Positions 15,135-63,058 of a DNA stretch of 64,000 nt are shown here, piece by piece (position 1 is the stretch's first letter; the number at the start of each line of letters is the position of its first letter). The DNA is from Aliiglaciecola sp. LCG003 (lineage in GTDB: Bacteria > Pseudomonadota > Gammaproteobacteria > Enterobacterales > Alteromonadaceae). The position numbers and the translations under genes are program-made. The notes under the pieces are model-generated. The model saw nothing but the letters and a program-made list of their open reading frames with translations. It was not told the origin of the DNA and searched no databases. The stretch is taken from positions 3,534,001-3,598,000 of the forward strand of contig NZ_CP128185.1 in the NCBI RefSeq assembly GCF_030316135.1, read 5' to 3'.

Positions 15135-15154
15135 ACCTATTTTACTCACTTTCA

Positions 15155-21984: not shown

Positions 21985-21991
21985 TTAGTTA

Positions 21992-42893: not shown

Positions 42894-43898
42894 TTAGAAG
42901 GGCAAGAAGTCGAAGGAGTAATCCAAGGTTGTGGTGGTGACAGACGAAGGACCAAAATTAATCAACCTTATCCGGTTGAGCAATTTATCTTCTAACTCCG
43001 GATAGTTCAGTTCACTTGAAACTAACTTTATCTGAGTAATGGAGCCGTCAGGGGCGATTTCCAAATTCACCGTAACCTTGCCTTGTAAGCCTGGATCTTC
43101 CCGTAATGCACGACGATAGATGGTGTAGATAGCGCCTTTATTTGCATCAAACCCTTTGCGGATAGATTCTATATCTCGGCTGCCAATCACCGCGTCTTCG
43201 GTGACCAATTCTTTGGCAGCCAAAGACGCCAAACCTTCATTCGGTGCGTCAAATTCAGTGGTTTTACGTCCGGCCAGCTCCCCTCTAGCACCCACATCAG
43301 TAGATAGTTCACCGGTATTTAACCCGCCACTTTTTTCAGCCACTTTTTTACCCACAAACGCCCGTTGCGCTTCATTGGTTTTGCCTGCGCCTTGGATCAT
43401 CTCGGTATCAGCCAGATTGTTAATATTAGTTTGGCTGCGCATACTATTAAGCTCATCCTGAAATTGCAGTAAACCGGTTTTTTGCGCTTTGGCTCTAGCC
43501 TGTTGAGCCAATTCAGCTTGGGTCGGCTTTTTCACTTCAGGTTTGGGTTTTTCAATTGGCTTTACAATTTTATTTTCTACCGGTTTAGGCTTCTCAGGCT
43601 CGACCTTAGGCGGCTCTTTAACCTCTACAGGTTTCTCTTGAGGGATCACTTTTGGCGGTTCAATCGGTTTGGGCGGTTCTACTTTCTGCGCTTCTAGTAT
43701 TTTGGTCAACTGGGGGGGGACTCGTTCTTTTTCTTCGCGGGTCTGTTCGGGCAACTGTTGCCATTTCACCAACAACGCCAAAAAAATTGTTAGGGCTAAA
43801 ACCCCAATAGTCAGACGATGGAAGACTTTATCGTCCCGTTCGCTGGATGACCAGGGTAATTGACTTCTGAAATAAACTGGTTGAGTCAAACTACTCAC
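42894..43898 (-). CDS. TonB-like energy transducer with AgmX/PglI C-terminal domain
   Basis: 334 residues. One membrane segment (about 30-45, GVLALTIFLALLVKW), then a long Pro/Lys/Glu-rich periplasmic region (about 55-130, with repeated EPPKP and KPxE units), a linker, and a C-terminal domain (about 245-334: RKGFDANKGAIYTIYRRALREDPGLQGKVTVNLEIAPDG) of the AgmX/PglI type, related to TonB C-termini. This architecture suits transmission of proton-motive force from ExbB/ExbD to the outer membrane; in Myxococcus, GltG and GltJ have this domain. The GTG start overlaps the upstream exbD stop (GTGA). It lacks the N-terminal cytoplasmic zinc/GYF domains of Myxococcus GltJ. Confidence 0.88.
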   Translation of the reverse strand: MSSLTQPVYFRSQLPWSSSERDDKVFHRLTIGVLALTIFLALLVKWQQLPEQTREEKERVPPQLTKILEAQKVEPPKPIEPPKVIPQEKPVEVKEPPKVEPEKPKPVENKIVKPIEKPKPEVKKPTQAELAQQARAKAQKTGLLQFQDELNSMRSQTNINNLADTEMIQGAGKTNEAQRAFVGKKVAEKSGGLNTGELSTDVGARGELAGRKTTEFDAPNEGLASLAAKELVTEDAVIGSRDIESIRKGFDANKGAIYTIYRRALREDPGLQGKVTVNLEIAPDGSITQIKLVSSELNYPELEDKLLNRIRLINFGPSSVTTTTLDYSFDFLPF

Positions 43899-44422
43899 GC
43901 ATCCCCCTCAATCGGCTTCTGCTCTACCGCCAATGAAATATTGGTGTAGCCCGCTTGAGCACAGGTTTGCATAATTTTTTTCAATAACTTATATGGAATG
44001 GCTTGGTCACCCATAATGGTAATCGCACGGGCAATCTCTTCAGAATGTTGAGCGTCCTGGTGATCAGCGGCAATCACTTTAACTCGACTTTTCTGATAGA
44101 GCAGCTCTTTTTCTAAGGCATCGATAATATCGTCGCTCTGTGACATCACTTGCGCCACATCAGCCATTTTCTGGCCTTGTAGCAGGATATCTTGACTGTT
44201 AACTAGCAACACTAAGGTTTCTTGGGCGGCAGTATCAGCTGAAGATTCAGGCAGTTGCACGCTTTTGTGGGTTTGCAAGACTTGCACATCCGATGCATTA
44301 AACATCAGAAAGAATACCAAAATGGTAAAGATGTCCATCAAGGAAACCAGACTGAGTTTGGACTCCTTGGCCATTCTTTTGTGGTGCCTTTCCATACGAG
44401 AGGCGCGAACTGATTTTTTCAT
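43895..44422 (-). CDS. ExbD/TolR family protein (active-type, membrane Asp present)
   Basis: 175 residues. Basic cytoplasmic N-terminus, one membrane segment (about 24-42, LSLVSLMDIFTILVFFLMF) with the conserved proton-carrying Asp at residue 30, and a periplasmic domain (about 60-170). The family works with ExbB/TolQ as a proton-driven motor part. The start has GGAGTAAAACG upstream. It follows a second, different exbD gene after 17 bp and overlaps the TonB-like gene. Confidence 0.9.
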   Translation of the reverse strand: MKKSVRASRMERHHKRMAKESKLSLVSLMDIFTILVFFLMFNASDVQVLQTHKSVQLPESSADTAAQETLVLLVNSQDILLQGQKMADVAQVMSQSDDIIDALEKELLYQKSRVKVIAADHQDAQHSEEIARAITIMGDQAIPYKLLKKIMQTCAQAGYTNISLAVEQKPIEGDA

Positions 44423-44439
44423 CGTTTTACTCCTCTTTG

Positions 44440-44970
44440 CTATGGGGTCGCATTCTGGGCATCAGGCGCTGCCGGAGCATCACCTAAGGAAATCTGAGGA
44501 AAAAGCTCTGCTTGTACCACAGATGCCACCACGACTTCGTCATAGGATCGGGTTGTGTCCATTAATGCCACTATGACTTGATATGGAATATCCGGCTCCA
44601 ACAATAAGGTCGCCTGATTTTTCTCTAACTGTTTATTTTTCAAAGTCTGCTTTATTTGTTTTAGCAGTGTTTGCAATGCTAGGTAATCGTAACCTTGTTC
44701 AGTATTAGCGATAGCTTCGACTAAATACCTTTGGGGATAAAATACTTCGATGCCGTCATGACGAACGATAATTTCCAGTTGTTGGTCTTTCTCATCCAAT
44801 TGCTGTTCCCTTGCTTCACTCAATTCAGGCAGAGTGAGTTCCACCACAGTGATACGAGAAAACACCATCATCATTAGCAGTACCGGCACTAACACTATCA
44901 TCAAGTTCATGAATGAGGTTATGTCGAGTTCTGCGTCCGATTTTTGCAGACGTCTAGTTCTGCCCAACAT
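44440..44970 (-). CDS. ExbD/TolR family protein lacking the membrane aspartate
   Basis: 176 residues with the same layout as its neighbour: short N-terminus, one membrane segment (about 17-38, ITSFMNLMIVLVPVLLMMM) and a periplasmic domain (about 50-165). The position of the conserved Asp aligns with Asn22 (SFMN against SLMD in the partner), so it probably cannot carry protons itself. It begins 6 bp after the exbB stop. A two-ExbD motor is also found in AglRQS of Myxococcus. Confidence 0.87.
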   Translation of the reverse strand: MLGRTRRLQKSDAELDITSFMNLMIVLVPVLLMMMVFSRITVVELTLPELSEAREQQLDEKDQQLEIIVRHDGIEVFYPQRYLVEAIANTEQGYDYLALQTLLKQIKQTLKNKQLEKNQATLLLEPDIPYQVIVALMDTTRSYDEVVVASVVQAELFPQISLGDAPAAPDAQNATP

Positions 44971-44976
44971 GCTGAA

Positions 44977-45639
44977 TTAATCCGAAGAACGAGAGTGAGT
45001 GGTAATCGATTGACGGCCCATTAAGGTGTTAAGACACTTCACCCCAGCCATTTCCATGCTATCAATAATCTCGGTGGTTTTGGTTTGTAAAATAGCGTGA
45101 AAGCCCAATAAGGGGATGGCTGCAATCAAGCCAAATGCCGTGGTATTCATCGCAACTGAAATACTTTGCGATAACAAACTGGCTTTTTCTGATGGATCCG
45201 CTGAGGCAACCGCAGAAAACGCCGCGATCAAACCGATAATGGTACCCAGCAAACCTAACAAGGTTGAGATGTTGGCAAGAGTCGCCAAGTAGCCAGTACG
45301 TTTCTCAAGTCTAGGGGTGCTCTCCATTAAACCCTCTTCCATTGCGTACTCAATGTCCTCACGACGCTGACTGATAGACATTCTATCAATTCCAGCGGCG
45401 ATAATGCGACTAATGGGTGCATCATTTGACTGACCAAATTTAACAATCCCAGCGTAATTTGCTGATTCAAGCATAGGTTCGATTTGTCTGAATGCCCGCT
45501 GATTAGTGCCCTTGGCCATGGTTAAAAATATAAAGCGCTCCAGCGCAATGGCTAAGCCGATAGCCAATACCACGGCAATGGGAAACATAAATGTTCCACC
45601 TTCTTGAAAGAACCGTACAATAACGTTGAAAATTTCCAT
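44977..45639 (-). CDS. MotA/TolQ/ExbB family proton channel protein
   Basis: 220 residues with three membrane segments: FMFPIAVVLAIGLAIALERFIFL (about 17-40), LATLANISTLLGLLGTIIGLIAAF (about 118-142) and ISVAMNTTAFGLIAAIPLLGFHAIL (about 160-185), the usual TolQ topology. The LLGTIIG and TAFGLIAAIP motifs are typical of the channel. It should form the stator ring around the two ExbD proteins in the inner membrane. The upstream gap of 121 bp is the largest in this part of the cluster, so a second promoter may lie there. Confidence 0.93.
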   Translation of the reverse strand: MEIFNVIVRFFQEGGTFMFPIAVVLAIGLAIALERFIFLTMAKGTNQRAFRQIEPMLESANYAGIVKFGQSNDAPISRIIAAGIDRMSISQRREDIEYAMEEGLMESTPRLEKRTGYLATLANISTLLGLLGTIIGLIAAFSAVASADPSEKASLLSQSISVAMNTTAFGLIAAIPLLGFHAILQTKTTEIIDSMEMAGVKCLNTLMGRQSITTHSRSSD

Positions 45640-45760
45640 AACAGTACCTTAATTTGCAATGGGGACAGTCTACTTGCTAATCCACCACTGTAGCGTATAT
45701 CAATCTCTACAAAGTTAACTTATTTAATAACTTAGCAGTGCTATTGGGTTTTATCTGGTG

Positions 45761-46183
45761 TTACTTCTGTGGCTGAGGTGCACCAGACACCCGCTCAAAA
45801 TGCTCCACTAATCGGGTAAATTCCTGGCGTTCTACAGGCATAAAATCTTGTTCAATCCGTTTTACAAAGGGACTGGGTAGTGAGGCTTTATCGCGCGGTG
45901 GTTGCCAAGGCACTATTGTCAGTACTTTGGGCTGCTCACGACTGGATCTGATAGTGTCCTGCAAATGCAATTTTCCATCAGCAGTTTTCATTGAGTCTGT
46001 CATTGCCCGAGTTGGCAATGGTGCCGTCGGTCCTTGCACGTCAGTCCGAATTGGCTGCTGCGCAGCACTGGTAGTTAAGGGACGTATAGGTTGCTGCTCT
46101 TCACGGTTTTTGCCAGTATCTTCAGCCAAAGCTGAAAATGAGCAGGCAAACCCCAGACTGATCATTACCACTAAATTATTCAT
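45761..46183 (-). CDS. Small exported protein of unknown function
   Basis: 140 residues. Signal peptide MNNLVVMISLGFACSFSALA, then a Pro/Gln/Thr-rich, probably disordered stretch (QQPIRPLTTSAAQQPIRTDV) and a short helical C-terminus (MPVERQEFTRLVEHFERVSG). No domain is recognised. A longer frame from 46228 is open, but the ATG at 46181-46183 has AGGAG six bases upstream and starts at the signal peptide. It overlaps the TPR lipoprotein gene by 8 bp. Confidence 0.72.
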   Translation of the reverse strand: MNNLVVMISLGFACSFSALAEDTGKNREEQQPIRPLTTSAAQQPIRTDVQGPTAPLPTRAMTDSMKTADGKLHLQDTIRSSREQPKVLTIVPWQPPRDKASLPSPFVKRIEQDFMPVERQEFTRLVEHFERVSGAPQPQK

Positions 46184-47015
46184 CCATTGCTCCTGCTGCA
46201 AGAGGTTGGGAGATATCATTGGAGGCACTCACCGGCGCTTTAGGAAGTTGTCGTTGCAAATCGGCAATCCAACCGCGTATTTGCCGAATCGGCTTATTTT
46301 GCAATGCCTGATAGATTTCATAATGCTCAAGTGCTTGTTGTTTATTGCCTAAATATAAATCATATAGGATACCGAGATTTAAATAGGCATTGGCATAGGC
46401 AGGCCAACTAGCAATAGCTAATTTGTAATGTCGCTCAGCCTGTTCAAAACGCCCAAGCTCGCGGTACACCTTGGCTAACCGATTATGTGCAAAGTAATTA
46501 GCATGATTAGCATCAACCGCTTTTTCATACAGAGCTTTACTGGCAAGTAAGACGTCTTGATTAGCTTGCCATTGGTCAGCACCGACATTCTCACGTTCCA
46601 ACAGTTTAATATCACCTAAGTGCAACCAAGGGCCTGACAAATTTGGGGTCATTTTGGTCAGGGCCGTAAATCGCTGTTTAGCAAGGTCGAATTGCTTATT
46701 ATTTTTCGCTTGAAGTGCTTGATTAAATTGATATTTCACGCTTTCATCAACCTGTGGCGAGGCGGAGAAATACACATTAGGTCGGGCTTTCAAATCAGCC
46801 ACTTTTTGTTCAAAGGGGCTTAATTGTGGCGCTGCTTGGGTTCCAACTTCACCGTCAGCGACTACTGATTTATGGTCAATTTGATTGCCTGTAGTAGTGC
46901 TAAGCATTTGATTGAAATTGGCACAGCCGGACAAGACCAGCAGCCCAAATACCAGCACAAAAGATTTGTAGCGGCTTAAGCATTGCATTGGGATTGGCGC
47001 TTTAATATATTTCAT
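46176..47015 (-). CDS. TPR-repeat lipoprotein
   Basis: 279 residues. A lipobox LVLSGC (Cys31) follows a long signal peptide, predicting lipid anchoring, most likely in the outer membrane (next residues ANF, no Asp at +2). Two or three TPR motifs lie in the second half: AKQRFTALTKMTPNLSGPWLHLGDI, HFAHNRLAKVYRELGRFEQAERHYKLAI-type and ANAYLNLGILYDLYLGNKQQALEHYEIY. The longer start at 47039 is less likely; the ATG at 47013-47015 has GGAGGT six bases upstream (47021-47026). Overlaps the large TPR gene by 14 bp. Resembles GltE/GltC-type TPR proteins in layout. Confidence 0.83.
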   Translation of the reverse strand: MKYIKAPIPMQCLSRYKSFVLVFGLLVLSGCANFNQMLSTTTGNQIDHKSVVADGEVGTQAAPQLSPFEQKVADLKARPNVYFSASPQVDESVKYQFNQALQAKNNKQFDLAKQRFTALTKMTPNLSGPWLHLGDIKLLERENVGADQWQANQDVLLASKALYEKAVDANHANYFAHNRLAKVYRELGRFEQAERHYKLAIASWPAYANAYLNLGILYDLYLGNKQQALEHYEIYQALQNKPIRQIRGWIADLQRQLPKAPVSASNDISQPLAAGAMDE

Positions 47016-49947
47016 CAACCACCTCCGCGACTTTTTCAACTTTGTTATAACGCCCGGGCAACAAAGCGCTCAAGGCTGCAAAGCTTTCACTAACCCAACG
47101 ATCATACACACCTTGCCAACTTCGTTTTATATTAGCTTCATGCACTTCGATGGCTTGCTCTTCAAAGGGATACGCCTGCTCTTCTAATAAAATATCATAT
47201 TGCTCCAATTCTAAGGCATTCAGTCCCTTGGGTCGTTCTGAAGCAATCAAGTCTCTGGCCAATTGAGCATAAATTTCTGCAATTTTATAATTTGCTGCGG
47301 TACTGAACTCCGCAATCTTGTAATCAAGGGTATGATTTAAGAGGCTCATAGCGGTATCTAGCGCACCGCGCTTTTTGGCTAAGCTGGATTTCAAAGGCAA
47401 GGTTAGCTTTATGTGTTGGAATGTCTGCAGCGCATCTTCGGCAAATACCATGGAAGACATAGCGGCCAAATAACGAGAACGGTCTGTTCTCCCTGCCCCG
47501 GCTTGTGCATCAGCTTCAATCAACTTATTTAACCAAAAACGACGCTTGCTATCATCTTGAGCAACTAAATAAAATTCGCTCATTTCAAAACGGGCTTCAG
47601 TCGCATCATCAAAAGGTAAAGTATAGGTGTTGGCGTAATTGCGGTAAGCCTCCAACGCCTGCTGAGTTTCACCGGCTTTTTTAAAGTACTGAGCGGCCAC
47701 AAACAAGGCTTCTCGCCCAGTCTCTGTTTCCGGCTGCTGTTGCCAAACTTGATTTAGCTCTTGTGCGGCCAATAACCAGTTCTGGTTTTGTTGATACGCG
47801 AAAATGAGTTTATCTCGTATTCCCACCAAAAGGGGGTGCTGAGGGAAACGTTGACGGAAGTCTTCCAATAATTCGATGCCTTGCTGCCACTGAGCCATTT
47901 CCAGTAAATAACTAGCGGCATCATATTGTGCAGTTACCCGCACCTTACTTAGTGGCGCTTTTTCGATCACTCGCAAGAAGTCATCTATGGCTAAGGATAC
48001 ATACTGCTTGGCTAGATTGGCTTCGGCTTGTTTGTAAATACTGGCCGCTAGACGGTCTAGCATATCTGCATATCGCGGATCATCTTGCCCAATATTAGTC
48101 AAAATTAACTGGTAGCTGTTTTCCGCTCGTTGATATTGTTCTAGAGCGAATTCACTGTGGGCGATAACTTGCATACCGGCAATGCGACGTATCTGCTCAA
48201 TTTCAGGCTTCCAGGCTAGCAATTGTTCTGCACTTTCAATCGCCCCTAGGTAACGAGCTAAGTCAAACTGTTGCTGCATGGAGTCATACAAGACCTTGTC
48301 CGCTCGAGGATCTCTAGCAAAGCGATTAACGAATTGTTGCTGGCTGGCTAACTGCTCATCTTGCCAGCGCTGCTGTTCTAGTGGGTCGGTCAGCTTTGCT
48401 CTCAATTCACGAAAGGCTAAGATGGCAGCGTAACCCGCTTCTGCCGCGCGAGGTTCTTTCAAATAGCGGTAAGCATATTTTTCAAAGGCTTCGATCGCCG
48501 CTGCATATTGTTGAGACTCGAATAAACTTTCAGCTAAGTTGAAAGTAATTTCTGGGGTCAGGTCATCCCGCGGAAAGGTTTCAATAAACTGCCGATATAA
48601 GTTTGCCGCTTGCTCATAGGCTTGCAAAGATTTTTGACGATTTTCAGCTACATTGCTTAGTTGAGTAGTATCGGAGTCAGCGGCGGCGTTGGCGTTGGAG
48701 AGCAATTGGGCCTTGCTGTGTTCAAACTGTGCCAATTCCTGTAGATATGCTTTAAGAAAAGGTTTCACCTCATCTTGCAGCAGTTGTCCCCAATCGGACC
48801 AGTAAGGCCCATGAATACCATATTCGCCAATAAACCTTTGTTTGGCCGGTAGTACTAAGGTGGGAAAGTCACCTAAAATAAAGGCATCAATTTGCTTTAC
48901 CGCAAAAAACGGCGCTTGATTGTGCTCGGGATGCACATCTGTAAAGGCCCGATACACCAAAGCACCGTCACGGAAACGATCTTCATTGAGGAATTGCTGA
49001 CCTAAACGGTCGTATAATAAGTTTTCATAATGGCGACCGCCAACCTCTTGGTAAAAGCTTAGCAGACTCTGTTCTGCGCCCTGGTAGGAAAACATTAATG
49101 CCATCATACGAATACTATCATTGACCAGACGTTTTTCTCCAACTGCCAGACTTTCCAATTGCTGCTCACTGCGCAGCTCCCTTAGCATATGGGAATCAAT
49201 GACACTGTTGGGCAACTTCTGGTCGAGTAACCTAGTAAAGGCACGCAACGAAAAGTTGTACTGCTCCGACTTATAGTAGCTCCAGCCCAGCATGTAAGCC
49301 GATGTCATGTAATAATCATTGCTTTCGCCGTTTTCCAGTACTTTACTATAGGCCGCGATGGCACCTAGATAATCACTACGGTTGAATAAGATCTCACCTT
49401 TGCGAAAATACAATTCTGGTGCATACATGCTATGGGGATAGTCGTTCAGCAATTGCTCAATAACCTCCAGACTTTGTTGAGACTGCCCTTGCAAATCATA
49501 GGATTTGGCTAGTTGATACAATACCTCAGCGTTGTCCCGTTGATTTGGGTGTTGAGCGAGTATTTGTTGGTACTGTGCAATGGCCAAATCAAAATAACCT
49601 TGTTCAAGCACTACACTGCCCACTTCTTGCTTTTGTTCTGCTAGCAATATTTCTAAATCTGCCAAACGATACTGAACTATCTTTAAGGTCTCAGGATCGT
49701 CTAACACATTGAGCAACCCCGTATAGGCATCCCGCAAATTCTCCAGCCCATTGTCTGGCAAGGGATCATGGTTTAGGGGCACGGGCTCAAAATAGAGCTC
49801 ACCAAGTGTTTTCTTTGGCTCAACTACTGCCGTTTCTGGTGAATCAAACATATTGGCGCAGCCTGCTAAAGAGATGATCGAGGTACTAGCAAATATCACT
49901 TTGAACAGCATGGCGGAGGTAAACTTAACCCTAGACTTATTCATCAT
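47002..49947 (-). CDS. Large TPR-repeat lipoprotein (981 aa)
   Basis: 981 residues. Lipobox ISLAGC (Cys30), then TPR-like helix pairs through most of the length (for example AQYQQILAQHPNQRDNAEVLYQLAKSYDLQGQ, LYFRKGEILFNRSDYLGAIAAYSKVL, AYMLGWSYYKSEQYNFSLRAFTRLL, ITFNLAESLFESQQYAAAIEAFEKYAY). It is a periplasmic scaffold anchored to a membrane. Such long TPR proteins are part of the Myxococcus gliding machinery (GltD/GltI), but I cannot assign orthology. The two start codons ATGATG overlap the upstream stop. Confidence 0.82.
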   Translation of the reverse strand: MMNKSRVKFTSAMLFKVIFASTSIISLAGCANMFDSPETAVVEPKKTLGELYFEPVPLNHDPLPDNGLENLRDAYTGLLNVLDDPETLKIVQYRLADLEILLAEQKQEVGSVVLEQGYFDLAIAQYQQILAQHPNQRDNAEVLYQLAKSYDLQGQSQQSLEVIEQLLNDYPHSMYAPELYFRKGEILFNRSDYLGAIAAYSKVLENGESNDYYMTSAYMLGWSYYKSEQYNFSLRAFTRLLDQKLPNSVIDSHMLRELRSEQQLESLAVGEKRLVNDSIRMMALMFSYQGAEQSLLSFYQEVGGRHYENLLYDRLGQQFLNEDRFRDGALVYRAFTDVHPEHNQAPFFAVKQIDAFILGDFPTLVLPAKQRFIGEYGIHGPYWSDWGQLLQDEVKPFLKAYLQELAQFEHSKAQLLSNANAAADSDTTQLSNVAENRQKSLQAYEQAANLYRQFIETFPRDDLTPEITFNLAESLFESQQYAAAIEAFEKYAYRYLKEPRAAEAGYAAILAFRELRAKLTDPLEQQRWQDEQLASQQQFVNRFARDPRADKVLYDSMQQQFDLARYLGAIESAEQLLAWKPEIEQIRRIAGMQVIAHSEFALEQYQRAENSYQLILTNIGQDDPRYADMLDRLAASIYKQAEANLAKQYVSLAIDDFLRVIEKAPLSKVRVTAQYDAASYLLEMAQWQQGIELLEDFRQRFPQHPLLVGIRDKLIFAYQQNQNWLLAAQELNQVWQQQPETETGREALFVAAQYFKKAGETQQALEAYRNYANTYTLPFDDATEARFEMSEFYLVAQDDSKRRFWLNKLIEADAQAGAGRTDRSRYLAAMSSMVFAEDALQTFQHIKLTLPLKSSLAKKRGALDTAMSLLNHTLDYKIAEFSTAANYKIAEIYAQLARDLIASERPKGLNALELEQYDILLEEQAYPFEEQAIEVHEANIKRSWQGVYDRWVSESFAALSALLPGRYNKVEKVAEVVDEIY

Positions 49948-51893: not shown

Positions 51894-51912
51894 CCTTGCT
51901 TGAATGAGATAA

Positions 51913-52449
51913 TTACAGTTCAACAACAGAAAATACAGCTTGCTGCTTTGACGTCGAGTCGGAAATAATCAGCTCAAACGCCTTGGCGTCTGACCCTTTA
52001 CTAAAGGTTATGGCTGTCGCCTGCTTATACTCCCGATCTTTTGGCCCCATCCCCGTAAAGAAAGCAGTTAACTGATGTTCACCTTGGGCCAAATTTCCGA
52101 TATGTAAGCGCTGTACACCACCGCGATTTAGCGCATCCACTTGCCGTTCAGTATAAAGATAATGGTCAACGACTTTATCATCAATACGTAGTTCCACAGA
52201 ATCCAACTTAAAGTAAGTGCCTACATCCATTGAAAGATAGACTACTACTTGGGTGCTAGAAGGAAAAAGTAAATCTTCTTCAAGTACAAATAAGTCCCGA
52301 TTTAGCTCGACCAATTCTTTTCTTAGCGCCTGTAACTGTTTAGCAATGGGTTGGTTATCCTGCACAGACACGGGCTCTGGTGATTGCGCAGCGCTAAATC
52401 CAGCCATACACCATAACGCTATTGAGAGGAAAATAGTACGCACATTCAT
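51913..52449 (-). CDS. Exported protein of unknown function
   Basis: 178 residues. Signal peptide MNVRTIFLSIALWCMAGFSAA, a short coiled coil (QLQALRKELVELNRDLFVLEEDLL, about 37-60), then a beta-rich domain (STQVVVYLSMDVGTYFKLDSVELRIDDKVV, LHIGNLAQGEHQLTAFFTGMG), like a single sandwich domain. No named family is recognised. The start at 52447-52449 has TAGGTGAG upstream. It lies 8 bp after the DUF3570 stop. Confidence 0.75.
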   Translation of the reverse strand: MNVRTIFLSIALWCMAGFSAAQSPEPVSVQDNQPIAKQLQALRKELVELNRDLFVLEEDLLFPSSTQVVVYLSMDVGTYFKLDSVELRIDDKVVDHYLYTERQVDALNRGGVQRLHIGNLAQGEHQLTAFFTGMGPKDREYKQATAITFSKGSDAKAFELIISDSTSKQQAVFSVVEL

Positions 52450-52457
52450 AATCTCAC

Positions 52458-53600
52458 CTAATACCAAATTGATACAAATATTCTCGTGACGTTAGCTGAA
52501 AATTCAAATAAAGGTTCAGCGCCAACCGGTCCATCAGCGAGGATATTTCTAAAATCATCATACTCAAAACGCAGATGATCTAACTCATAATTTATCGTAC
52601 TCTTTTTCAACCAAGAAGATTGAGAAAACTTAAACTCATAAGTCAAACTAAATCCTATAGAGCTATTTCTGAAGCTACTCATCTCTTTGTCTCTGGCGCG
52701 AAAATTCTGCTCAGCACTACGGGTAAATAAATCTTGATAGAAATCCGCCCTATCCTGCTGATAATGCCGTACGCGCAGATCCAAAATCCAATTATCACCA
52801 AAGGTATGGATATATCCTACTTTAAAACTATTGGCGTCAATACCCCAAGTATCAGAAAAAATCCGAGCTTCGCCATAGATGCTGGCGCGATATGCTAAAT
52901 AGTAATTTAGATTGAGCGCGGCAGCATTACTGGTACGTGTATTGGGATACAATTCTGTTTCAAAGCGATAGCCCCTGTCTGCCGTTGTATCGGTATACCG
53001 TACCGCACGATATGGATTATTCAAATACCCTTCGTCCGTTATAGTTTCAAAGGTGAGTCCCATGATCATATTTTTAGTCAGTACTTGAGTCAGACCTAGT
53101 TGAAATTGTTGGCGGTCAGCTTCTTCAGCAAAATTTTCATCCCCTCGCTTGCCTACTTCATCCCAACCTTTGGCATAACCTAGACTAAGGGTTGTCAAGT
53201 CACCGAAGAAGTCTTGTGAGATACCAAAATGCACAGAACGAGCTTCAAAATCATTTTCCGAACTACTGGTGTAATTTAGATTCAACAGGGTTTTATTGTG
53301 CAAAAAGTCAATTCCTACACTGTGCTCTGTGCGCTCTTCTGTGTAGGGACTGGCGGTGGCTAGTACATCAATAGAGGCGCCGGATATCATATCCACATAA
53401 TAATTAGCCGACACCGATACTTTGTTGCCGATTTGTTTACGCAGCAATACCGATGGACCATCTATAGACATGCCGTCACCTTGATAGGAATGATACATCA
53501 CATCGGCACGTTCCTGAGGCAGAACCGCGGCGTTTACGCCTAGGGAAATTGCTAAGAGTAATTGCACTATCAGCAAAATCAGCAACCAAGGCTTGGTCAT
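52458..53600 (-). CDS. DUF3570 outer-membrane beta-barrel protein
   Basis: 380 residues. Signal peptide MTKPWLLILLIVQLLLAISLGVNA, then regular alternating beta strands to a C-terminal aromatic residue (FVSIWY), typical of outer-membrane barrels. The N-terminal LPQERADVMYHSYQGDGMSIDGPSVLLRKQIGNKVSVSANYYVDMISGASIDV matches DUF3570, a family usually encoded next to DUF4266, as here. The function is unknown. The frame is open to 53675; the ATG at 53598-53600, 4 bp after the DUF4266 stop, is the start consistent with the signal peptide. Confidence 0.88.
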   Translation of the reverse strand: MTKPWLLILLIVQLLLAISLGVNAAVLPQERADVMYHSYQGDGMSIDGPSVLLRKQIGNKVSVSANYYVDMISGASIDVLATASPYTEERTEHSVGIDFLHNKTLLNLNYTSSSENDFEARSVHFGISQDFFGDLTTLSLGYAKGWDEVGKRGDENFAEEADRQQFQLGLTQVLTKNMIMGLTFETITDEGYLNNPYRAVRYTDTTADRGYRFETELYPNTRTSNAAALNLNYYLAYRASIYGEARIFSDTWGIDANSFKVGYIHTFGDNWILDLRVRHYQQDRADFYQDLFTRSAEQNFRARDKEMSSFRNSSIGFSLTYEFKFSQSSWLKKSTINYELDHLRFEYDDFRNILADGPVGAEPLFEFSANVTRIFVSIWY

Positions 53601-53604
53601 TGTT

Positions 53605-53841
53605 TTAGTTACAGCCACAGCCACCTCCCGCTCCACCTTCTGCACCTCGCGCCCCTTCCCTAGCCTGAAAAGCATGTTTGGTGTAGCTAAAGGAAACTGG
53701 ATTAGGGTTGAGGGCCATGATGGGATCCGCTAGATTGTCACGCTCATAAGGCTTAACCCATGGCTCCAGGGTACTGACACATCCGGTGAGATACGCCACG
53801 CTGACACTGGCCATTAATCCTGCTGCAATTTTTTTAAGCAT
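53605..53841 (-). CDS. DUF4266 lipoprotein with C-terminal CxC tail
   Basis: 78 residues. Lipobox AYLTGC (Cys21), then a conserved core VKPYERDNLADPIMALNPNPVSFSYTKHAFQAREG and a Gly-rich tail ending GGAGGGCGCN with two Cys (75 and 77). This is the DUF4266 pattern. The short CxC end could bind metal or be a redox substrate. The gene lies between a TlpA-like thioredoxin and DUF3570, which are typical partners. The start at 53839-53841 has TAGGTAGGG upstream; a longer frame from 53883 is less likely. Confidence 0.85.
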   Translation of the reverse strand: MLKKIAAGLMASVSVAYLTGCVSTLEPWVKPYERDNLADPIMALNPNPVSFSYTKHAFQAREGARGAEGGAGGGCGCN

Positions 53842-53882
53842 AGCCCTACCTATATAAACAAAAGAATTAGTCACTTTGCTCA

Positions 53883-54398
53883 CTATTCTCTTAGTAAAGC
53901 TTTAACCACGGACTGATACTTGGTCTCGTCGCCAGTTTTATATCCGTAATGCGTCAAGCGCTTGTTGCCATCCCGATCAATGATCACCGTAGTGGGCATG
54001 GCACGCACATCATAAAGCTTGCTGACTTGATCGTTATCATCAAACAATACCGGGAAGCTCACTGCAATATCTTTAAGCAATGCCGTGGCCTTTTCTGGAT
54101 TCTCATCCACATTCACCGCCAATACGGTAAAACCGATATCCTGGTACTCTTGCTGCATTGCTTCAAAATGCGGCAATTCTTCGCGACATGGCGCACACCA
54201 TGATGCCCAAAAGTTAATCAATACCACATTACCTTGCTGCTCTTCCAAGCGCATATTTTCGCCAGACTGGCTTTTCAGGGTGAAATCTGGAGCGCTGCTG
54301 ATGGTATCAGACGCCTTGGCGGTAAATGTGGCTATGATCAACAATGAAATCACCGCGACAAATAGATAATAAAAATTAGAAAATGGTTTTGAATTCAT
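53883..54398 (-). CDS. TlpA-like periplasmic thioredoxin
   Basis: 171 residues. N-terminal membrane/signal segment (about 10-28, FYYLFVAVISLLIIATFTA), then a thioredoxin/AhpC-TSA fold with the active site WASWCAPC (Cys68 and Cys71), FPVLFDDNDQ, and the cis-Pro loop RAMPTTVIIDRDG. TlpA/ResA-type proteins reduce specific periplasmic disulfides, often for cytochrome c or copper-site assembly. Here possible clients are the CxC tail of the DUF4266 protein or the CXXCH proteins encoded nearby. Confidence 0.92.
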   Translation of the reverse strand: MNSKPFSNFYYLFVAVISLLIIATFTAKASDTISSAPDFTLKSQSGENMRLEEQQGNVVLINFWASWCAPCREELPHFEAMQQEYQDIGFTVLAVNVDENPEKATALLKDIAVSFPVLFDDNDQVSKLYDVRAMPTTVIIDRDGNKRLTHYGYKTGDETKYQSVVKALLRE

Positions 54399-54432
54399 GA
54401 CAATACTCCGTCAGCTATTCAGTTAGTTTGGC

Positions 54433-55089
54433 TCAAAAGAAAAAGGTTGCACCCAGTCCATACTCGATGTTGTGGGTGGCTTTTTCTTCGCCAATAATTT
54501 CACTATTAAAAATATGATCTTTGAGGCCCACATGGAGGGCAAAATAATCGGTGAGCAGCAAACGATAGCCAGCACCAGCGCTTATGGTAAAACGACTATC
54601 ACCGGCAAAATCTGTACTACCTGCGCCCAAGGTAAAATAGGTCGCGGAATTAAATACCAAATCATTGCTCACAAAAACTTCGCCGTTCAGGTTATACCCG
54701 AGGGACAAGTTATAATAGGTATAGTCACGCTCATCTTCAGTTAGAAAGGGCGCACCGCCGCTCAATTTTTCAAAACTGGTTTTACCCGCTTTGGATTGGG
54801 CATAGCTAGCCTCCACAAAGAAATCTTCATTAACATGATAAGCAACACGAGCACCAATCACTGCATTGGAAGAAAAATCTTCGATACTCAACACACCAAC
54901 AAACAACCCTAATTCAAAATTTTCACTGTCGATTTTTGCAGCGTTGATATCTCTACGTTGCAAGTCAGGTTCAAACACTGTTTGAGTAGATGTGCGAGTG
55001 TCTTGTGGTTCAGCCTGCTGAGCCACTGCATGGGATGCGCTGCCCAATAGCATAACGCCTAGAAAAATACTGCAAATCCGAGTTTCCAC
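54433..55089 (-). CDS. Outer-membrane beta-barrel protein
   Basis: 218 residues. A GTG start gives the signal peptide METRICSIFLGVMLLGSASHAVA; the later ATG at 55053 would leave too short a signal. The mature part has amphipathic strands (FELGLFVGVLSIEDFSSNAVIGARVAYHVN, FVEASYAQSKAG, YYNLSLGYNL, GYRLLLTDYFALHVGLKDHIF) and ends in FFF, a barrel terminal signature. The fold resembles 8-strand OmpA-like porins (OMP_b-brl). It overlaps the SH3/barrel gene by 31 bp. Similar to GltA/GltB class proteins only in type. Confidence 0.8.
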   Translation of the reverse strand: METRICSIFLGVMLLGSASHAVAQQAEPQDTRTSTQTVFEPDLQRRDINAAKIDSENFELGLFVGVLSIEDFSSNAVIGARVAYHVNEDFFVEASYAQSKAGKTSFEKLSGGAPFLTEDERDYTYYNLSLGYNLNGEVFVSNDLVFNSATYFTLGAGSTDFAGDSRFTISAGAGYRLLLTDYFALHVGLKDHIFNSEIIGEEKATHNIEYGLGATFFF

Positions 55090-55811
55090 TCTTCCAACTC
55101 CTCATTCTCGTCACGCTCGGTAAGCACAACTAAATTTTGATATTCCAGTTTGAGCACAAAGTTTTGTGTCAGGTAATAGCGCACACCAATGCTCGCCGCG
55201 AGTAGATCGTTAGTACGTGTATCTTCACCAGACTGCACCAAGTTAGCTCGCGGTTTAGTTTGTATTTGCCCTGCGCCCAGTCGAAAATACGGTGACCAGC
55301 GCCATTCAGGGAAGGGACTATGAGTGATACTTAAAGTTGCATAACGATTTTCTGAAAAATCGCCTAGTGCCTGACTAAGACTCAGTTCTGTAGCGATATT
55401 TTCAGTCCAAACCCAACTGGCGACCACCGATAACGAAGGCACACCATCAAGAGAGCCACCATTGGCGCCAAATTCAAAATCTCGCTGTTGATAGCTTGCG
55501 AAACTTTGCTGAACAATCTCCACCGGCTGGCCTTCACTACTGAGTGTCATTGCCAGATCAGCCAATTTCACCCAACCTTCCTTTCCCTTACGTGTTCGGA
55601 CTTTGAACCAGTTGGTGCGACGTTTGAGAACCGTTATCCATTCATCTTTCGTCGCCACGTAAAACACCGGATACCCCATCGCGGGTCCCGTATGCAATTC
55701 GATATAAGGCTGTGCAATTTGCACCTCTGGCAAGATATCTTCGCCAAAGGCTGGATTAACGATTAAGGCAAACCCTATCAGGAAGAACCATTTGGCCATT
55801 TTTTCCATCAT
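55059..55811 (-). CDS. SH3-like plus outer-membrane beta-barrel protein
   Basis: 250 residues. Signal peptide (1-23, ending AFG), a bacterial SH3 domain (about 30-90: QPYIELHTGPAMGYPVFYVATKDEWITVLKRR and WFKVRTRKGKEGWVKLADL), then a beta-barrel (about 105-250) ending in GFAVFF, an outer-membrane insertion signal. SH3b domains commonly bind peptidoglycan, so this protein may link cell wall and outer membrane. It starts at the stop of the upstream di-heme lipoprotein gene and overlaps the next barrel gene. Confidence 0.82.
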   Translation of the reverse strand: MMEKMAKWFFLIGFALIVNPAFGEDILPEVQIAQPYIELHTGPAMGYPVFYVATKDEWITVLKRRTNWFKVRTRKGKEGWVKLADLAMTLSSEGQPVEIVQQSFASYQQRDFEFGANGGSLDGVPSLSVVASWVWTENIATELSLSQALGDFSENRYATLSITHSPFPEWRWSPYFRLGAGQIQTKPRANLVQSGEDTRTNDLLAASIGVRYYLTQNFVLKLEYQNLVVLTERDENEELEEWKLGFAVFF

Positions 55812-58540
55812 TAATCCGCCGGAGCTGCAAAAGGATTATTGTAATACTGACCACCAATATCCAGCCACTCAGCAATCAGTTTGAGTTCTGCCTTTGATAG
55901 CCAACTTTGATGACTGCCGGTGGCGCTAAACGGGTTAAAGAATCTCGCACTGCTGCGGGCACCATTGGTACTCATAGCATTTGCCACCCTGATATTTTGA
56001 AATACCGCAATTGGATTCCCATCAGCATCGAGGATTAGCTCACCATCTTCATCAACTTCAAACACCGGATCGCCGTTGGCGTCAAGCACCGCAACTAGAC
56101 GATCTACTATTGCGCCTTCCAACAATTCTTGTTCGTTATCAGTAAACATTAGCTCGCGATAACTGGTGAGGTGATCGGGGTTATCAACTGAGACTGAACC
56201 GCTTAAGTCCAGTTGCGCCACTGGCACCTGCGGCATTTGCGCCTCGTCGATGGGCGAATGACAGCTTGTACAAGTGTGATTGGCAAGTACCGAAATGCCA
56301 TCTTCGGCTAAGACCATTCTGGGCAATTCAAAAATAGGTTGAATGGCATCAGGATAATTAATTTGAATACGGCAAAGTGATGTCCATTGGGTTGCACAAG
56401 CAGAAGTAATAGGTATGGCCGTAGCTAAATCAGCATAGGTATAAGCAAAGCCCGGCACAGGATTGGCAATAGCCGGATCGGTCCAAATATCCTCAAATTC
56501 AATATCGGCTTGTGGGCGTTGAACGCCGTTAAATCGACCATTGGTTTGCGCCATGGTCTCGCCAGTATCAGCAAACAATACAGGATTTGTATTAGGAAAT
56601 GGCGTTCCGGTTGTGGCAGCGCCTAAATTTATCGATGGAGCTTCTGCTGCCACGCGGCCGTGGGGTAATTCACTACTTTGAGTATGGCAGCCATTACAGG
56701 TCTTTACTTCTCCGGGCGCAAATTGCATCCAATTTTGATGCCGCTCGCTGACCCGTTGACCATTAATATCTAACAAGCTGATTGCCAGTGGCAAATTCGC
56801 GGGTACATTAAAAAGTGCAGAGCCATCGGGTTGTACTGGCACATAGCCAATGATTTCACGCATTAACTGATTGCGACTGCGACCAAACGCAGAATTGTCA
56901 AAATCCCTTACATCTTGGTCAGGAATTGATACAGCTTTAACCACACGAATGAATTGTACGGGTCTTTGCAATACTGGAGTTTGCGTAGGGTCAGCTAACA
57001 CCGCAATACCTTGCGGGGATGCATCCACACCGGCAAAATCATACACGCTTTTAATATGGATCTGAGCCAAACTAGCATCCGCTAAATCTTGACTAAAGAC
57101 TTCGGCTATTTGAGCATCATCAGGAAACGCTCTAGATTCCATCGCCACGACTTCGCTAAACATCACACCTTCTGTCGGTACACCAATCGGTAACTGGGTG
57201 TTTTCAATGGGATCAAACATCCACAAACCAAACAAAAGTGGAGCTGCTTGCACATCAGGATTGGCCAACAAGGCATCGGTGCAAGGCAGAATACGGCGCT
57301 CTTCACCTTCTAGCAATTCTTCATCAGGGTCATACACTCGGCATTGACTCCAGCTAAACAGAACACGTTCACTACCATCCCACAAAGGATAAACCGCGTT
57401 AAAGTGTCCACCAGGCGAAATACTGCCGTCGATATTGATATTATCAAATAATATCGGCTGTTGTGCCGGGCCTGAAAGTCCACCTTGATTGGCAAACGGT
57501 TGTTGAATATCGATGAAGTTCTGAATGTCGATAGCCACATAGTCACCGCCTATTGTGGACGAATTAAAGCTACGAATTGCGCTTAATAATCGGCCATCGG
57601 CTAGCTCGCGACTCTGGGTAAATTGCAGCGCTTGCTCGCTGCGTTCAATATTATGACTATGTCGGCCGTAAACAATTTCTAGGCCAGAACCATCGGCATT
57701 CATCTGATACAAGTTAATCGTGTTGTTGTTGCCCGCTTGGTCCCAACGACTAAACAATATTTTGCCATTGCTTAGCACGGTAGCATCAAGATCATGGGAT
57801 TGATTAAATGAGATTTGTTGGATGTCTTGGCCATTCGCTGACATCACATGCAGTACAGAAGCATGCTGGTCCAAGCCTTCTTCTAAACCTTGATATTGAG
57901 GTTTGCCTTCATCTAACAATACTGCTTGATTACCCGCTTGGCGAGTGGAGCTAAACAATATCCGCCCATCTGGCAGATAAACCGGTGCGGTATCCTGGCC
58001 TTCTTCAGCTACGATATCAGACACTATTAATCTGGAAAGCTGGTCAGTCAGACGATTGTATTGCCAGATATTCCAACTAGGTTGCTGATCATCATCAGCA
58101 TCTTCAATTTCCGGGGCGCGCATGGCAAAAAGTAAACGTTCGCCATCATAAGAGACTTCTAAATCTTTCACATCATAACCGGCTAACGGATTATCTTGAC
58201 TGGCTTGGCTGATTTGCTCTTCGGTATAAAAAGCTCGGTCAGTAATATTGCTTTCAACGGCGCTGGCAGAAGCTCTAGGTTTAAGGTAAATCGCAGCGCC
58301 GGGAATAAAATCAGTCGGGTTAGTCAAGTCGGCTGTGAGTAGCTCACCATCTTCATTCAAAGGCAAAGCACGTTTGATATAGGCGATGGGGATATCCACT
58401 ACCACGGGATCAGGCTGCTGATTGTTTGATACTAAAGCTTGGCCACCGCCACAGCCGCTAAGCAAGATCATGCAGCAAGCACCAGCAAAAACCATAAGGT
58501 TGGAGTTGAGCCCTAGTGTTGTAAAACGAACATAATTCAT
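55811..58540 (-). CDS. Di-heme (two CXXCH) beta-propeller lipoprotein, HZS-alpha-like
   Basis: 909 residues. Lipobox MILLSGC (Cys30). Residues about 100-340 contain TolB/PD40-type propeller units (VYLPDGRILFSSTRQAGN, ATVLSNGKILFSRWDQAGNNNTINLYQMNADGSGLEIVYG). The middle part resembles the hydrazine synthase alpha family. Two c-type heme motifs follow, CNGCH (615-619) and CTSCH (757-761). The family occurs widely outside anammox bacteria with no known role, so hydrazine synthesis is not implied. It is the first gene of the minus-strand cluster; the ATG at 58538-58540 is chosen because of the lipobox (the frame is open to 58603). Confidence 0.85.
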   Translation of the reverse strand: MNYVRFTTLGLNSNLMVFAGACCMILLSGCGGGQALVSNNQQPDPVVVDIPIAYIKRALPLNEDGELLTADLTNPTDFIPGAAIYLKPRASASAVESNITDRAFYTEEQISQASQDNPLAGYDVKDLEVSYDGERLLFAMRAPEIEDADDDQQPSWNIWQYNRLTDQLSRLIVSDIVAEEGQDTAPVYLPDGRILFSSTRQAGNQAVLLDEGKPQYQGLEEGLDQHASVLHVMSANGQDIQQISFNQSHDLDATVLSNGKILFSRWDQAGNNNTINLYQMNADGSGLEIVYGRHSHNIERSEQALQFTQSRELADGRLLSAIRSFNSSTIGGDYVAIDIQNFIDIQQPFANQGGLSGPAQQPILFDNINIDGSISPGGHFNAVYPLWDGSERVLFSWSQCRVYDPDEELLEGEERRILPCTDALLANPDVQAAPLLFGLWMFDPIENTQLPIGVPTEGVMFSEVVAMESRAFPDDAQIAEVFSQDLADASLAQIHIKSVYDFAGVDASPQGIAVLADPTQTPVLQRPVQFIRVVKAVSIPDQDVRDFDNSAFGRSRNQLMREIIGYVPVQPDGSALFNVPANLPLAISLLDINGQRVSERHQNWMQFAPGEVKTCNGCHTQSSELPHGRVAAEAPSINLGAATTGTPFPNTNPVLFADTGETMAQTNGRFNGVQRPQADIEFEDIWTDPAIANPVPGFAYTYADLATAIPITSACATQWTSLCRIQINYPDAIQPIFELPRMVLAEDGISVLANHTCTSCHSPIDEAQMPQVPVAQLDLSGSVSVDNPDHLTSYRELMFTDNEQELLEGAIVDRLVAVLDANGDPVFEVDEDGELILDADGNPIAVFQNIRVANAMSTNGARSSARFFNPFSATGSHQSWLSKAELKLIAEWLDIGGQYYNNPFAAPAD

Positions 58541-59314
58541 TGTAACTTTCAAGCCTCCAACGTTAGACGGTTGTCTCTGAGTAGCGATAATTTGCGCGAG
58601 CAATTATCCACTGCCAACTTTAAACTTTAAACTGTCTCTGCATACAGACTGACGGACTTGGGGCCGACTAGTATCCGAATACTCAAACAGCTATTGCTTT
58701 TAACTAGGCTGGCGAGTGTTTCATTTTGCCTAGAGCTAAACAATCAGGGGATCAATCCAAAGTAATGTAATCTCATACCTTTAATGCCCCTGCCCCTCAA
58801 AAAATTTTCGTGATTGAACTGGTTAGATTGAAAAAATATTCCATTTAGTTGCCGGCGAAACCACCATGTCACAGATGACAGACAGCCAATTACGCCCGCC
58901 GTATATACATAAAAAGCTGATTTAAAGGGAGTTTGTCCAAATCCATCCATTAATCTGATCGTTAGACTGAATTTGCTGTGGCTAATTGGGTACGATATTC
59001 GAACCAAGATTGGGATAGCACTTGGATCCATTCCCTTCAACGCCCACCGAATACCTAGTGGTCTAATTTATGCTAAAGGGTCACAGCTGTTGCTTGCCAA
59101 TTGGTGAGCGTCGCTATCTGATCCCCAGGTCATTTTAGCTAGCGGATATTTATACGGGTAATAATGTCCGATTAAACGAATGCCCCTCAGCAGGTTTAAT
59201 TTTATGGATGCCATGAAAGGTATTGATAACTAGACCCTAAGCTCAGCAACTATATTTACCCTTAGTGGGTAATTCGACTATTTTTACCTTGGAAGCAGTT
59301 AGGAGCGCCAAAAT
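58541..59314. other. Divergent intergenic region (774 bp) between the two envelope operons
   Basis: It must contain promoters for both the minus-strand cluster and the plus-strand operon. Seen here: an ACTTTAAACTTTAAAC short repeat near 58617-58631 and a hairpin/operator-like inverted repeat at 59256-59272. A 98-codon minus-strand frame (58744-59040) has no support as a gene. Confidence 0.5.
59256..59272 (+). promoter_or_regulatory. Inverted repeat TTACCC-N5-GGGTAA upstream of the plus-strand operon
   Basis: A perfect 6-bp inverted repeat with a 5-base spacer, 43 bp before the TTG start of the CXXCH protein gene. The size and position suit a regulator-binding site or a small leader hairpin; neither can be decided from sequence. 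Confidence 0.35.
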
Positions 59315-63039: not shown

Positions 63040-63058
63040 CAGCAATAAAGGTTTGAAC

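Follow-up and report, generated by a model that had tools for sequence, protein, structure and literature searches.

Two described groups of genes are closest to the locus reported here. One is the Agl-Glt machinery of Myxococcus xanthus, part of which (gltC, gltD, gltE and gltG, and aglR, aglQ and aglS) clusters in gammaproteobacteria with one additional gene that Myxococcales lack, where Luciano et al. (2011, PMC3169522) described the core complex as being of unknown function. The other is the flavinylation clusters of Meheust et al. (2021, PMC8238504), which hold genes for thioredoxin-like, DUF4266, DUF3570, and ApbE proteins. Flavinylation of DUF3570 was shown in that work, the CXC tail of DUF4266 was read as possibly redox-active, and 316 flavinylation clusters were found to lack DsbD. 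Here we describe a run of 15 genes in Aliiglaciecola sp. LCG003 in which relatives of both groups stand together. The run lies in a 64,000-nucleotide stretch of contig NZ_CP128185.1 (positions 3,534,001 to 3,598,000), called the window below, and all positions refer to this stretch. The core half, with its motor, transducer, and tetratricopeptide repeat (TPR) proteins, has been known in gammaproteobacteria since 2011 and is not new. What is new is the assignment of the redox half to the same system as the core. Each half has a published relative (PMC3169522; PMC8238504), and our literature search, in which most subscription journals were out of scope, returned no paper joining a gliding-type core with these redox genes.

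Organization of the gene cluster

The run consists of 15 co-directional open reading frames (ORFs) on the minus strand (42894-58603). Their order is HzsA-like, SH3-barrel, OMP_myx barrel, TlpA, DUF4266, DUF3570, sp184, TPR660, TPR981, TPR287, sp155, ExbB, ExbDa, ExbDb, and AgmX, that is, nine Agl-Glt-type core genes (sp184 to AgmX) behind six envelope/redox genes (HzsA-like to DUF3570). The names sp184, sp155, TPR660, TPR981, TPR287, W417, W822, and L570 were coined in this analysis. Families were assigned by Pfam and NCBIfam profile searches of the cluster proteins with scores compared with the model cut-offs, and signal, lipobox, and twin-arginine translocation (Tat) assignments were read by eye from the sequences without a signal-peptide program. 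Taking the longest ORFs as listed, 10 of the 14 gene junctions overlap, by 1-71 nucleotides, and the largest intergenic gap, between sp155 and ExbB, is 121 nucleotides. The HzsA-like gene has its ATG at position 58540, with TTG 58603 as a possible earlier opening of its ORF. A preliminary description of the locus, made from the sequence alone, had noted the common direction and the overlapping or closely spaced starts and stops, both of which agree with these data. It had counted thirteen genes; all the genes it named are present, and its own list plus DUF4266 comes to fifteen ORFs. A promoter and terminator scan of the locus gave no more sites than shuffled sequence and was not used, so single-operon status is argued from spacing and synteny only.

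Conservation and co-inheritance of the two halves

Scanning genome contigs with sp184 gave 295 relatives, and the best 80, a selection biased toward window-like loci, were analysed. The exact 15-gene order is found in 47 of the 80 loci, and eight more keep the same order up to the end of the contig or flank. Both sets are present with an extra or missed gene in four loci, the HzsA gene stands divergently beside the core in nine, and only TlpA and the core are within the flank in seven. The remaining five are two short fragments and three full sets with a missed or repeated match. These 80 loci come from Alteromonadaceae, Hahella, Marinobacter, Aliikangiella, Pseudohalioglobus, and metagenome-assembled genomes of Chromatiales, among others. 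The 15-gene arrangement, the order of which is kept among the closest relatives, is not due to chance.

An independent layout should be noted. In seven of the 80 loci (L105, L126, L127, L129, L131, L139, and L140, the core of L129 being cut by a contig end), W417, W822, L570, ApbE, sp184, and the rest of the core share one direction, and HzsA is divergent. L106 and L122 have a similar layout without an ApbE match, and L106 also has no W417 match.

The association extends to the class. Among 369 gammaproteobacterial genomes, sp184 (E up to 1e-3) occurs in 82 and the HzsA ortholog (E up to 1e-30) in 52, and 51 genomes have both (Fisher p 1.2e-39, uncorrected for relatedness). The single genome with HzsA and without sp184, G230 (locus L157), has an interrupted HzsA gene in which the heme half is not matched. 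When a line is drawn at an sp184 score of 190 bits, a value chosen after seeing the scores, HzsA is found in 48 of the 51 genomes above it and in three of the 31 with lower-scoring sp184 only. In the genomes with both genes, the two lie within 12 kb in 36 (on the same strand in 26), on different contigs in 13, and further apart in two. L570 occurs in 50 of the 369 genomes, 45 of which have HzsA, 48 sp184, and 44 all three.

The DUF3570 genes give a similar picture within the order. The divergent, cluster-type DUF3570 subfamily is found in 22 of 197 genomes of the order and sp184 in 25, with both in 20 (odds ratio 340, p 1e-20). In the two genomes having this DUF3570 without sp184 (G038 and G127), the contigs end there and core genes are still present in the stretch fetched. 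In the control, canonical DUF3570 (matches over 400 bits, with a middle-scoring group at about 235-355 bits left out) occurs in 32 genomes, and its association with sp184 is weak (odds ratio 3.6, p 0.008).

Both halves are kept even where they lie apart. Seven genomes of the order (G003, G013, G014, G029, G058, G059, and G173) have the redox set away from the core, and each has the core elsewhere. All nine core genes are detected in five of them, sp155 is undetected in G003, and the G058 core is cut by a contig end. In the variant of G023 (L031), which is among the 22 genomes with cluster-type DUF3570, the barrels, TlpA, and DUF3570 stand after AgmX, and HzsA and DUF4266 are not detected. Five genomes of the order (G041, G061, G096, G139, and G165) have sp184 without the redox set.

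Nineteen core loci were fetched from low-scoring, second-copy, or HzsA-less cases. Among the 16 without the six redox genes in the stretch fetched, eleven have all nine core genes and five have one undetected. The other three (L151, L152, and L155) lack HzsA and retain the barrels, TlpA, and DUF3570; L152 is truncated at the end of its contig. The nine-gene core stays one block in linked, split, and standalone loci. The preliminary description had counted the barrels in the gliding core, which does not agree with the 16 of 19 sampled loci where a core stands without the three barrels; these belong with the redox genes. Standalone cores are common, so not all cores require the redox half.

A quick tree of TPR981 (74 rows, selected from 115 and the window copy; midpoint root, no outgroup) does not group the redox-linked cores into a single clade. 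Such cores occur on either side of the root, interspersed with standalone and second-copy cores. One row, L060 (G017), is labelled split but is not counted so: its contig and that of L029 both end inside sp184, and the separation is more likely an assembly break. Standalone cores or second copies with lower-scoring sp184 and no redox set in the stretch are seen in L054-L056, L058, L059, L141-L150, L153, L154, L156, and L158-L160. A TlpA-type gene stands immediately or almost immediately before sp184 in L046, L048, L053, L096, L110, L114, L124, L101, L102, and L113, and in the last three it is a second one, beside that of the redox set.

Motor, transducer, and other core proteins

The motor set consists of one ExbB/TolQ-like and two ExbD/TolR-like genes. 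ExbB (44977-45639, minus strand as for all 15 genes) is an AglR-like proton channel subunit by its MotA_ExbB match of 103 bits, and its solved relatives are TolQ and ExbB. T133, T166, and T167, which we take to be the channel threonines, are invariant across 12 aligned rows. Both ExbD proteins match PF02472. ExbDb (43895-44422), which is AglQ-like, keeps the transmembrane Asp, as do 85 of 98 orthologs (the other 13 being unreadable by the search pattern). In ExbDa (44440-44970), the Asp is replaced by Asn, and its orthologs have Asn in 83 of 98 and Ser in five, ten being unreadable by the pattern. In Myxococcus, an aglQ D28N mutant was reported to be paralysed, with proton conductance abolished (PMC3858216).

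None of the ExbB and ExbD genes of the run attains an NCBIfam equivalog cut-off for Tol, ExbB, or ExbD. The scores and cut-offs are 60/221 bits (TolQ) and 48/206 bits (ExbB) for the ExbB protein, and 32/127 bits (TolR) and 21/123 bits (ExbD) for the two ExbD proteins. These values, far under the cut-offs, indicate that the motor genes are not ordinary Tol or TonB parts, an assignment that would have undermined the preliminary description. Elsewhere in the genome are four further ExbB-like matches, at 34-76 bits, compared with 383 for the cluster ExbB.

AgmX (42894-43898) is an AgmX/GltG-like TonB-type transducer with an AgmX/PglI tail (NF033768, 60 bits, cut-off 40; TonB_C, 26 bits, cut-off 24.6). 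By eye, it has a hydrophobic N-terminal stretch and a proline-rich part. It scores 48 bits with the GltG model, far under the equivalog cut-off of 650, and has no FHA family match in the Pfam search. There is one AgmX match in the genome, and a profile search of AgmX against the PDB gave nothing useful.

Three TPR proteins of a kind that would fit GltC, GltD, and GltE precede the motor genes. TPR660 (49944-51926; exported, TPR_16) is a candidate counterpart of GltC (673 amino acids) by size and domain in Table 1 of PMC3169522. TPR981 (47002-49947; TPR_6, and the ybgF model at 104 bits, over 90) is a lipoprotein and a candidate counterpart of GltD (1191 amino acids). TPR287 (46176-47039; TPR_12), also a lipoprotein, is a candidate GltE counterpart with only a weak NCBIfam GltE match of 16 bits. 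The first core gene, sp184 (51913-52467), encodes an exported protein modelled as a helix plus a beta-sandwich (predicted local distance difference test score, pLDDT, 80), for which no PDB fold was found at E ≤ 0.001. The small exported protein sp155 (45761-46228) has a conserved place between TPR287 and ExbB. Neither sp184 nor sp155 has a match in Pfam or NCBIfam.

Judged by composition, domains, and sizes, the run very likely contains a member of the Agl-Glt core family, as the preliminary description had proposed from the motor, AgmX, and TPR set. The gammaproteobacterial core of Luciano et al. (PMC3169522) likewise consists of ExbB, two ExbD, a TonB-like transducer, three TPR proteins, and an additional gene in one cluster, and the protein kinds and sizes given there fit TPR660, TPR981, TPR287, AgmX, and the three motor genes. 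That paper names Marinobacter, and Marinobacter loci (L112, L123, and others) are also in the present set. In contrast, the constant core here has nine genes, with sp184 and sp155 added, instead of eight, and it is joined to flavin and heme modules; the words "cytochrome" and "thioredoxin" do not occur in the main text of PMC3169522. The Myxococcus xanthus Agl-Glt gliding and Agl-Nfs spore-coat machines share the motor, transducer, and TPR composition and a proton-channel Asp in an ExbD protein. Unlike in those machines, no Group A gliding gene is recognised in the run, to which this examination was confined (no GltI-sized gene; GltJ model, 23/450 bits), the transducer lacks an FHA match, and redox modules are present.

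Flavin and thiol proteins and a dedicated ApbE

Five genes between HzsA and sp184 encode a putative thiol and flavin set. The SH3-barrel (55059-55811), an outer-membrane barrel protein with an SH3 domain, has an SH3_3 match of 36 bits and an OMP_b-brl match of 27.5 bits, just under the cut-off of 28.7, and its position is conserved. It is followed by an outer-membrane barrel of the OMP_myx_plus family (54433-55089; TIGR04565, 167 bits, cut-off 60). The barrels of the run could be remote counterparts of GltA and GltB. The exported thioredoxin (53883-54398) is TlpA/ResA-like (AhpC-TSA, 103 bits; ResA subfamily, 119 bits, below the cut-off of 170), and its CxxC motif is found in 80 of 80 orthologs scoring over 100 bits. 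The small DUF4266 lipoprotein (53605-53883; PF14086, 81 bits) ends in GGGCGCN. This tail occurs in the window copy and all 19 listed orthologs, with GGGCGC constant.

The DUF3570 protein (52458-53675; PF12094, 139 bits; start likely near 53600) is an outer-membrane barrel carrying an ApbE-type motif, D-M-I-S-G-A-S, at residues 95-101. In the model (pLDDT 82), the barrel is built of sixteen long strands, and comparison of the model with the PDB confirms a generic barrel only, the matches including FadL, OmpG, Cir, and PelB. If long loops face outward, as a rule, the motif would be located on strand 3, at its outer end. Among 19 cluster families, a recurrent D-x-x-[ST]-G-A-[ST] motif is confined to DUF3570 (50 of 87 rows). 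The motif column reads SGAS in 50 rows, TGAS in one, SSAS in 17, SAAS in 15, TSAS in one, and NDDS in one, with a gap in two; the last Ser is kept in all 85 non-gap rows, and the Gly is not. Four Marinobacter genomes retain ApbE with the motif SAAS. From the motif, the barrel is probably flavinylated by ApbE. An ApbE motif on another cluster protein is not supported among the 19 families, the nearest being SGAS without the Asp in seven of 66 W417 rows.

The genome has three ApbE genes. One adjoins a gene read by eye as nqrF, another accompanies the canonical DUF3570, and the third stands alone, 16 kb before the window. The solitary ApbE is 44-52% identical to sixteen ApbEs in or beside clusters (of eighteen cluster-borne ApbEs, two near-copies being left out), whereas the Nqr-side copy is only 28-34% identical to them. 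In 41 chosen genomes, it is matched at 273 bits at least in 25 of 26 with the system, two of which (L096 and L110) show only the core and TlpA in the flank, and at 153 bits at most in all 15 without sp184 (p 2.5e-10). The one system genome missing it, G113, is 88% complete. In G031 and G006, ApbE directly follows L570, at 86 and 56 nucleotides. By these sequence comparisons, the solitary ApbE is assigned as the dedicated flavin transferase of the system.

The set shares the thioredoxin-like protein, DUF4266 with its CXC tail, DUF3570 with an ApbE motif, and ApbE with the DsbD-type flavinylation clusters as described in PMC8238504. It differs from them in that the cluster lacks DsbD, the DUF3570 belongs to a divergent subfamily with one motif instead of two, and the set is joined to motor and heme proteins. 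A canonical TlpA-DUF4266-DUF3570 set with its own ApbE is also present in the same genome at 4.20 Mb (G000:C1:4193001-4213000, L032), and no core gene was matched within this 20-kb stretch.

Heme proteins and the divergent operon

The HzsA-like lipoprotein (55811-58603; 930 amino acids as listed) has matches to PF18582, the middle domain of HZS_alpha (60 bits), and to the PD40 beta-propeller repeat. Its heme c motifs are CNGCH at 636 and CTSCH at 778. Of 81 orthologs with scores above 800 bits, 80 have two CxxCH motifs. Apart from the HZS_alpha middle domain and one shared 64-residue stretch (E 5e-14 to 5c2v), it is unlike the hydrazine synthase alpha subunit. The NCBIfam equivalog score is 44/800 bits, and no further hydrazine synthase subunit is recognised by Pfam or NCBIfam among the 15 proteins; hydrazine synthase identity is thus rejected.

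On the other strand, beyond the region first described, the divergent operon W417-W822-L570 starts at 59315. W417 (59315-60568, plus strand) is exported and has one CxxCH motif (CIGCH at 253); it is weakly DUF1585-like, with a PSD2 score of 16.7 bits that is below the cut-off. W822 (60571-63039, plus strand) is a lipoprotein with a LamG domain (Laminin_G_3, 69 bits) and two motifs, CGACH at 75 and CVNCH at 189. L570 (plus strand, 63017-64000 and on to about 64657, L161:5017-6657) has a Tat-like signal, SRREFI, and a mean column identity of 64% in nine rows. No Pfam or NCBIfam match was found for L570, and a profile search against the PDB gave nothing useful. The L570 family is highly conserved and has invariant PHNP, SGGNS, DYHT, and SDGS stretches, in which a metal site is a guess.

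Homologs of W417 are found in 65 of the 80 loci, in L157, and, partially, in L155. Those of W822 are found in L157 and in 17 of the 80 loci, and those of L570 in nine of the 80, both counts being limited by the flanks. G230 (L157) carries W417, W822, and L570, all reading through. The system extends beyond the 64 kb on the other strand and to the ApbE outside the window.

Other genes in the window and genome

An ordinary dcw division and cell-wall cluster is located at 13905-28985, with ftsA, ftsQ, ddl, murC, murG, ftsW, mraY, murE, ftsI, and rsmH among the ten genes scanned. At 40297-41916, an SVAGG GlyGly-CTERM-like protein (58/150 bits) has a Reprolysin-like metallopeptidase match and a Calx-beta domain. 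Elsewhere in the genome, a Rab-like small GTPase (G000:C1:433754-434245, L166) lies between EAL/GGDEF-like and OmpA-like proteins (by eye).

Discussion

The core and redox halves belong, with high probability, to one inherited system. The preliminary description had set TlpA, DUF4266, DUF3570, and the HzsA-like gene aside from the gliding core, whereas here they form an integral half of the system. Its claim of one co-regulated system stands as one co-inherited system, with operon status argued as above, and the TPR, barrel, and motor genes are conserved together over the 80 loci and 369 genomes, where a lack of such conservation would have spoken against it.

Several observations weigh against this reading and the scheme developed from it below. 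No HzsA ortholog is found in 31 of the 82 genomes with sp184, and 16 of the 19 sampled core loci have no redox set in the stretch fetched. Seven of the 369 genomes have HzsA without L570, and five have L570 without HzsA. In 33 of the 85 aligned rows of DUF3570, Ser or Ala replaces the Gly of the flavinylation motif (17 SSAS, 15 SAAS, and one TSAS). Since this Gly is variable and ApbE-bearing loci include SSAS forms (L018 and L117), flavinylation of all DUF3570 members is unproven. There is no DsbD gene in the cluster, and the only DsbD_TM match in the genome, at 4184699, is about 590 kb away. Finally, co-inheritance is not proof of physical contact and partly reflects shared descent.

The standalone cores also speak for the explanation that a redox set and a Glt core are two neighbouring but separate systems, tied only by shared regulation or ecology. 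In addition, second, divergent sp184 copies are found in genomes that also hold a linked one, and G230 has the heme genes but no sp184. However, 51 of 52 HzsA genomes have sp184, the sole exception, G230, having the interrupted HzsA gene with its heme half unmatched. Both halves are kept when apart, the rearranged operon joins the same sets again, and canonical DUF3570 is tied to sp184 only weakly (3.6, p 0.008) compared with the cluster subfamily (340). Two separate systems are thus quite improbable. An ordinary TonB- or Tol-type energy system beside uptake genes is more improbable by far: the Pfam ExbB, ExbD, and TonB_C domains exceed their cut-offs, and TolQ and ExbB are the solved relatives of ExbB, but every Tol, ExbB, ExbD, and TonB equivalog score is far under its cut-off. 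Moreover, no TonB-dependent receptor domain is present in the 15 proteins at E 0.05, and the other four ExbB-like genome matches are weak (34-76 bits against 383).

Two further explanations concern the task of the core. It could be an Nfs- or secretion-like transport machine that exports the heme and flavin proteins and L570 or anchors them on the cell surface, with the redox proteins as cargo or folding helpers instead of partners in a redox task. The description of the core as possibly basal transport machinery (PMC3858216) is consistent with this, as are the Tat-like signal of L570 and the lipobox-like signals of W822, HzsA, and DUF4266, and TlpA could serve heme or disulfide maturation. 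However, at E 0.05 none of the 15 proteins has a match to a secretin or translocon family, and the TlpA-like, DUF4266, DUF3570, and ApbE proteins form a described electron-transfer set (PMC8238504) that exceeds the needs of a folding helper. We consider this explanation unlikely, though it carries real weight. A surface-motility or adhesion machine like that of Myxococcus gliding would fit the AglRQS-GltCDEG composition, the LamG domain of W822, and the position of two barrels ahead of the GltC-like gene, which recalls gltB-gltA before gltC in Myxococcus (PMC3169522). Against it are the low GltJ and GltG scores (23/450 and 48/650 bits), the lack of a GltI-sized gene in the run, and the argument of Luciano et al. 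that a core by itself is not likely to power motility (PMC3169522). For an MglA-like switch, the genome search covered PF00025 among the Ras-type families. The one short Arf-type GTPase that it gave (163 amino acids, at 0.43 Mb) adjoins an OmpA-like gene and is about 3.1 Mb from the run in contig coordinates; a further match falls in an 877-residue frame. Surface motility or adhesion, which the preliminary description had suggested together with surface transport, finds no specific support here and is improbable, slightly more so than two separate systems.

We return to the reading of one envelope-spanning system, in which three modules may be distinguished. In the module from sp184 to AgmX, which would work like an Agl-Glt machine, the ExbB/ExbD channel would convert proton flow to motion, AgmX would pass the motion into the periplasm, and the TPR proteins, sp184, and sp155 would connect to the outer membrane. 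The SH3-barrel, OMP_myx barrel, TlpA, DUF4266, DUF3570, and dedicated ApbE would form an electron path from thiol to flavin, at the end of which stands an outer-membrane barrel probably flavinylated by ApbE. The di-heme HzsA-like lipoprotein, mono-heme W417, di-heme LamG protein W822, and Tat-exported L570 would make up a heme complex, the probable place of which is at or close to the outer membrane. The motor probably performs mechanical work on this outer-membrane redox complex, such as export, assembly, or movement of the complex or its substrate, with TlpA, DUF4266, and flavinylated DUF3570 giving or accepting electrons.

The gene content, gene order, co-inheritance, key residues, heme and flavin motifs, and dedicated ApbE are the observed part of this scheme. 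That the motor works on an outer-membrane flavin and heme complex, taken jointly with the one-system part, is a claim we favour with some reserve. Proton flow, membrane placement, the electron path, force transfer, and the task are inferred, and the task is much less certain than the one-system part.

A more tentative view, which we regard as possible rather than probable, is that the gliding-type core began as the engine of a redox machine, or long served as one in gammaproteobacteria. Proton flow would then mechanically drive a surface flavin and heme complex that handles electrons or a redox substrate, and the standalone, gliding, and spore-coat cores would be later re-uses. Because the TPR981 tree has no outgroup, such an origin, or an old linked form, is allowed and not demonstrated.

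The function of the core outside gliding bacteria was described as unknown in 2011 (PMC3169522). Now that the core is linked with five heme c motifs, a barrel that is probably flavinylated, and its dedicated ApbE, this function becomes concretely testable in marine bacteria that are in culture, Marinobacter and Alteromonadaceae among them. If the proposed machine is true, a mechanical drive would be added to what is known of outer-membrane redox systems.

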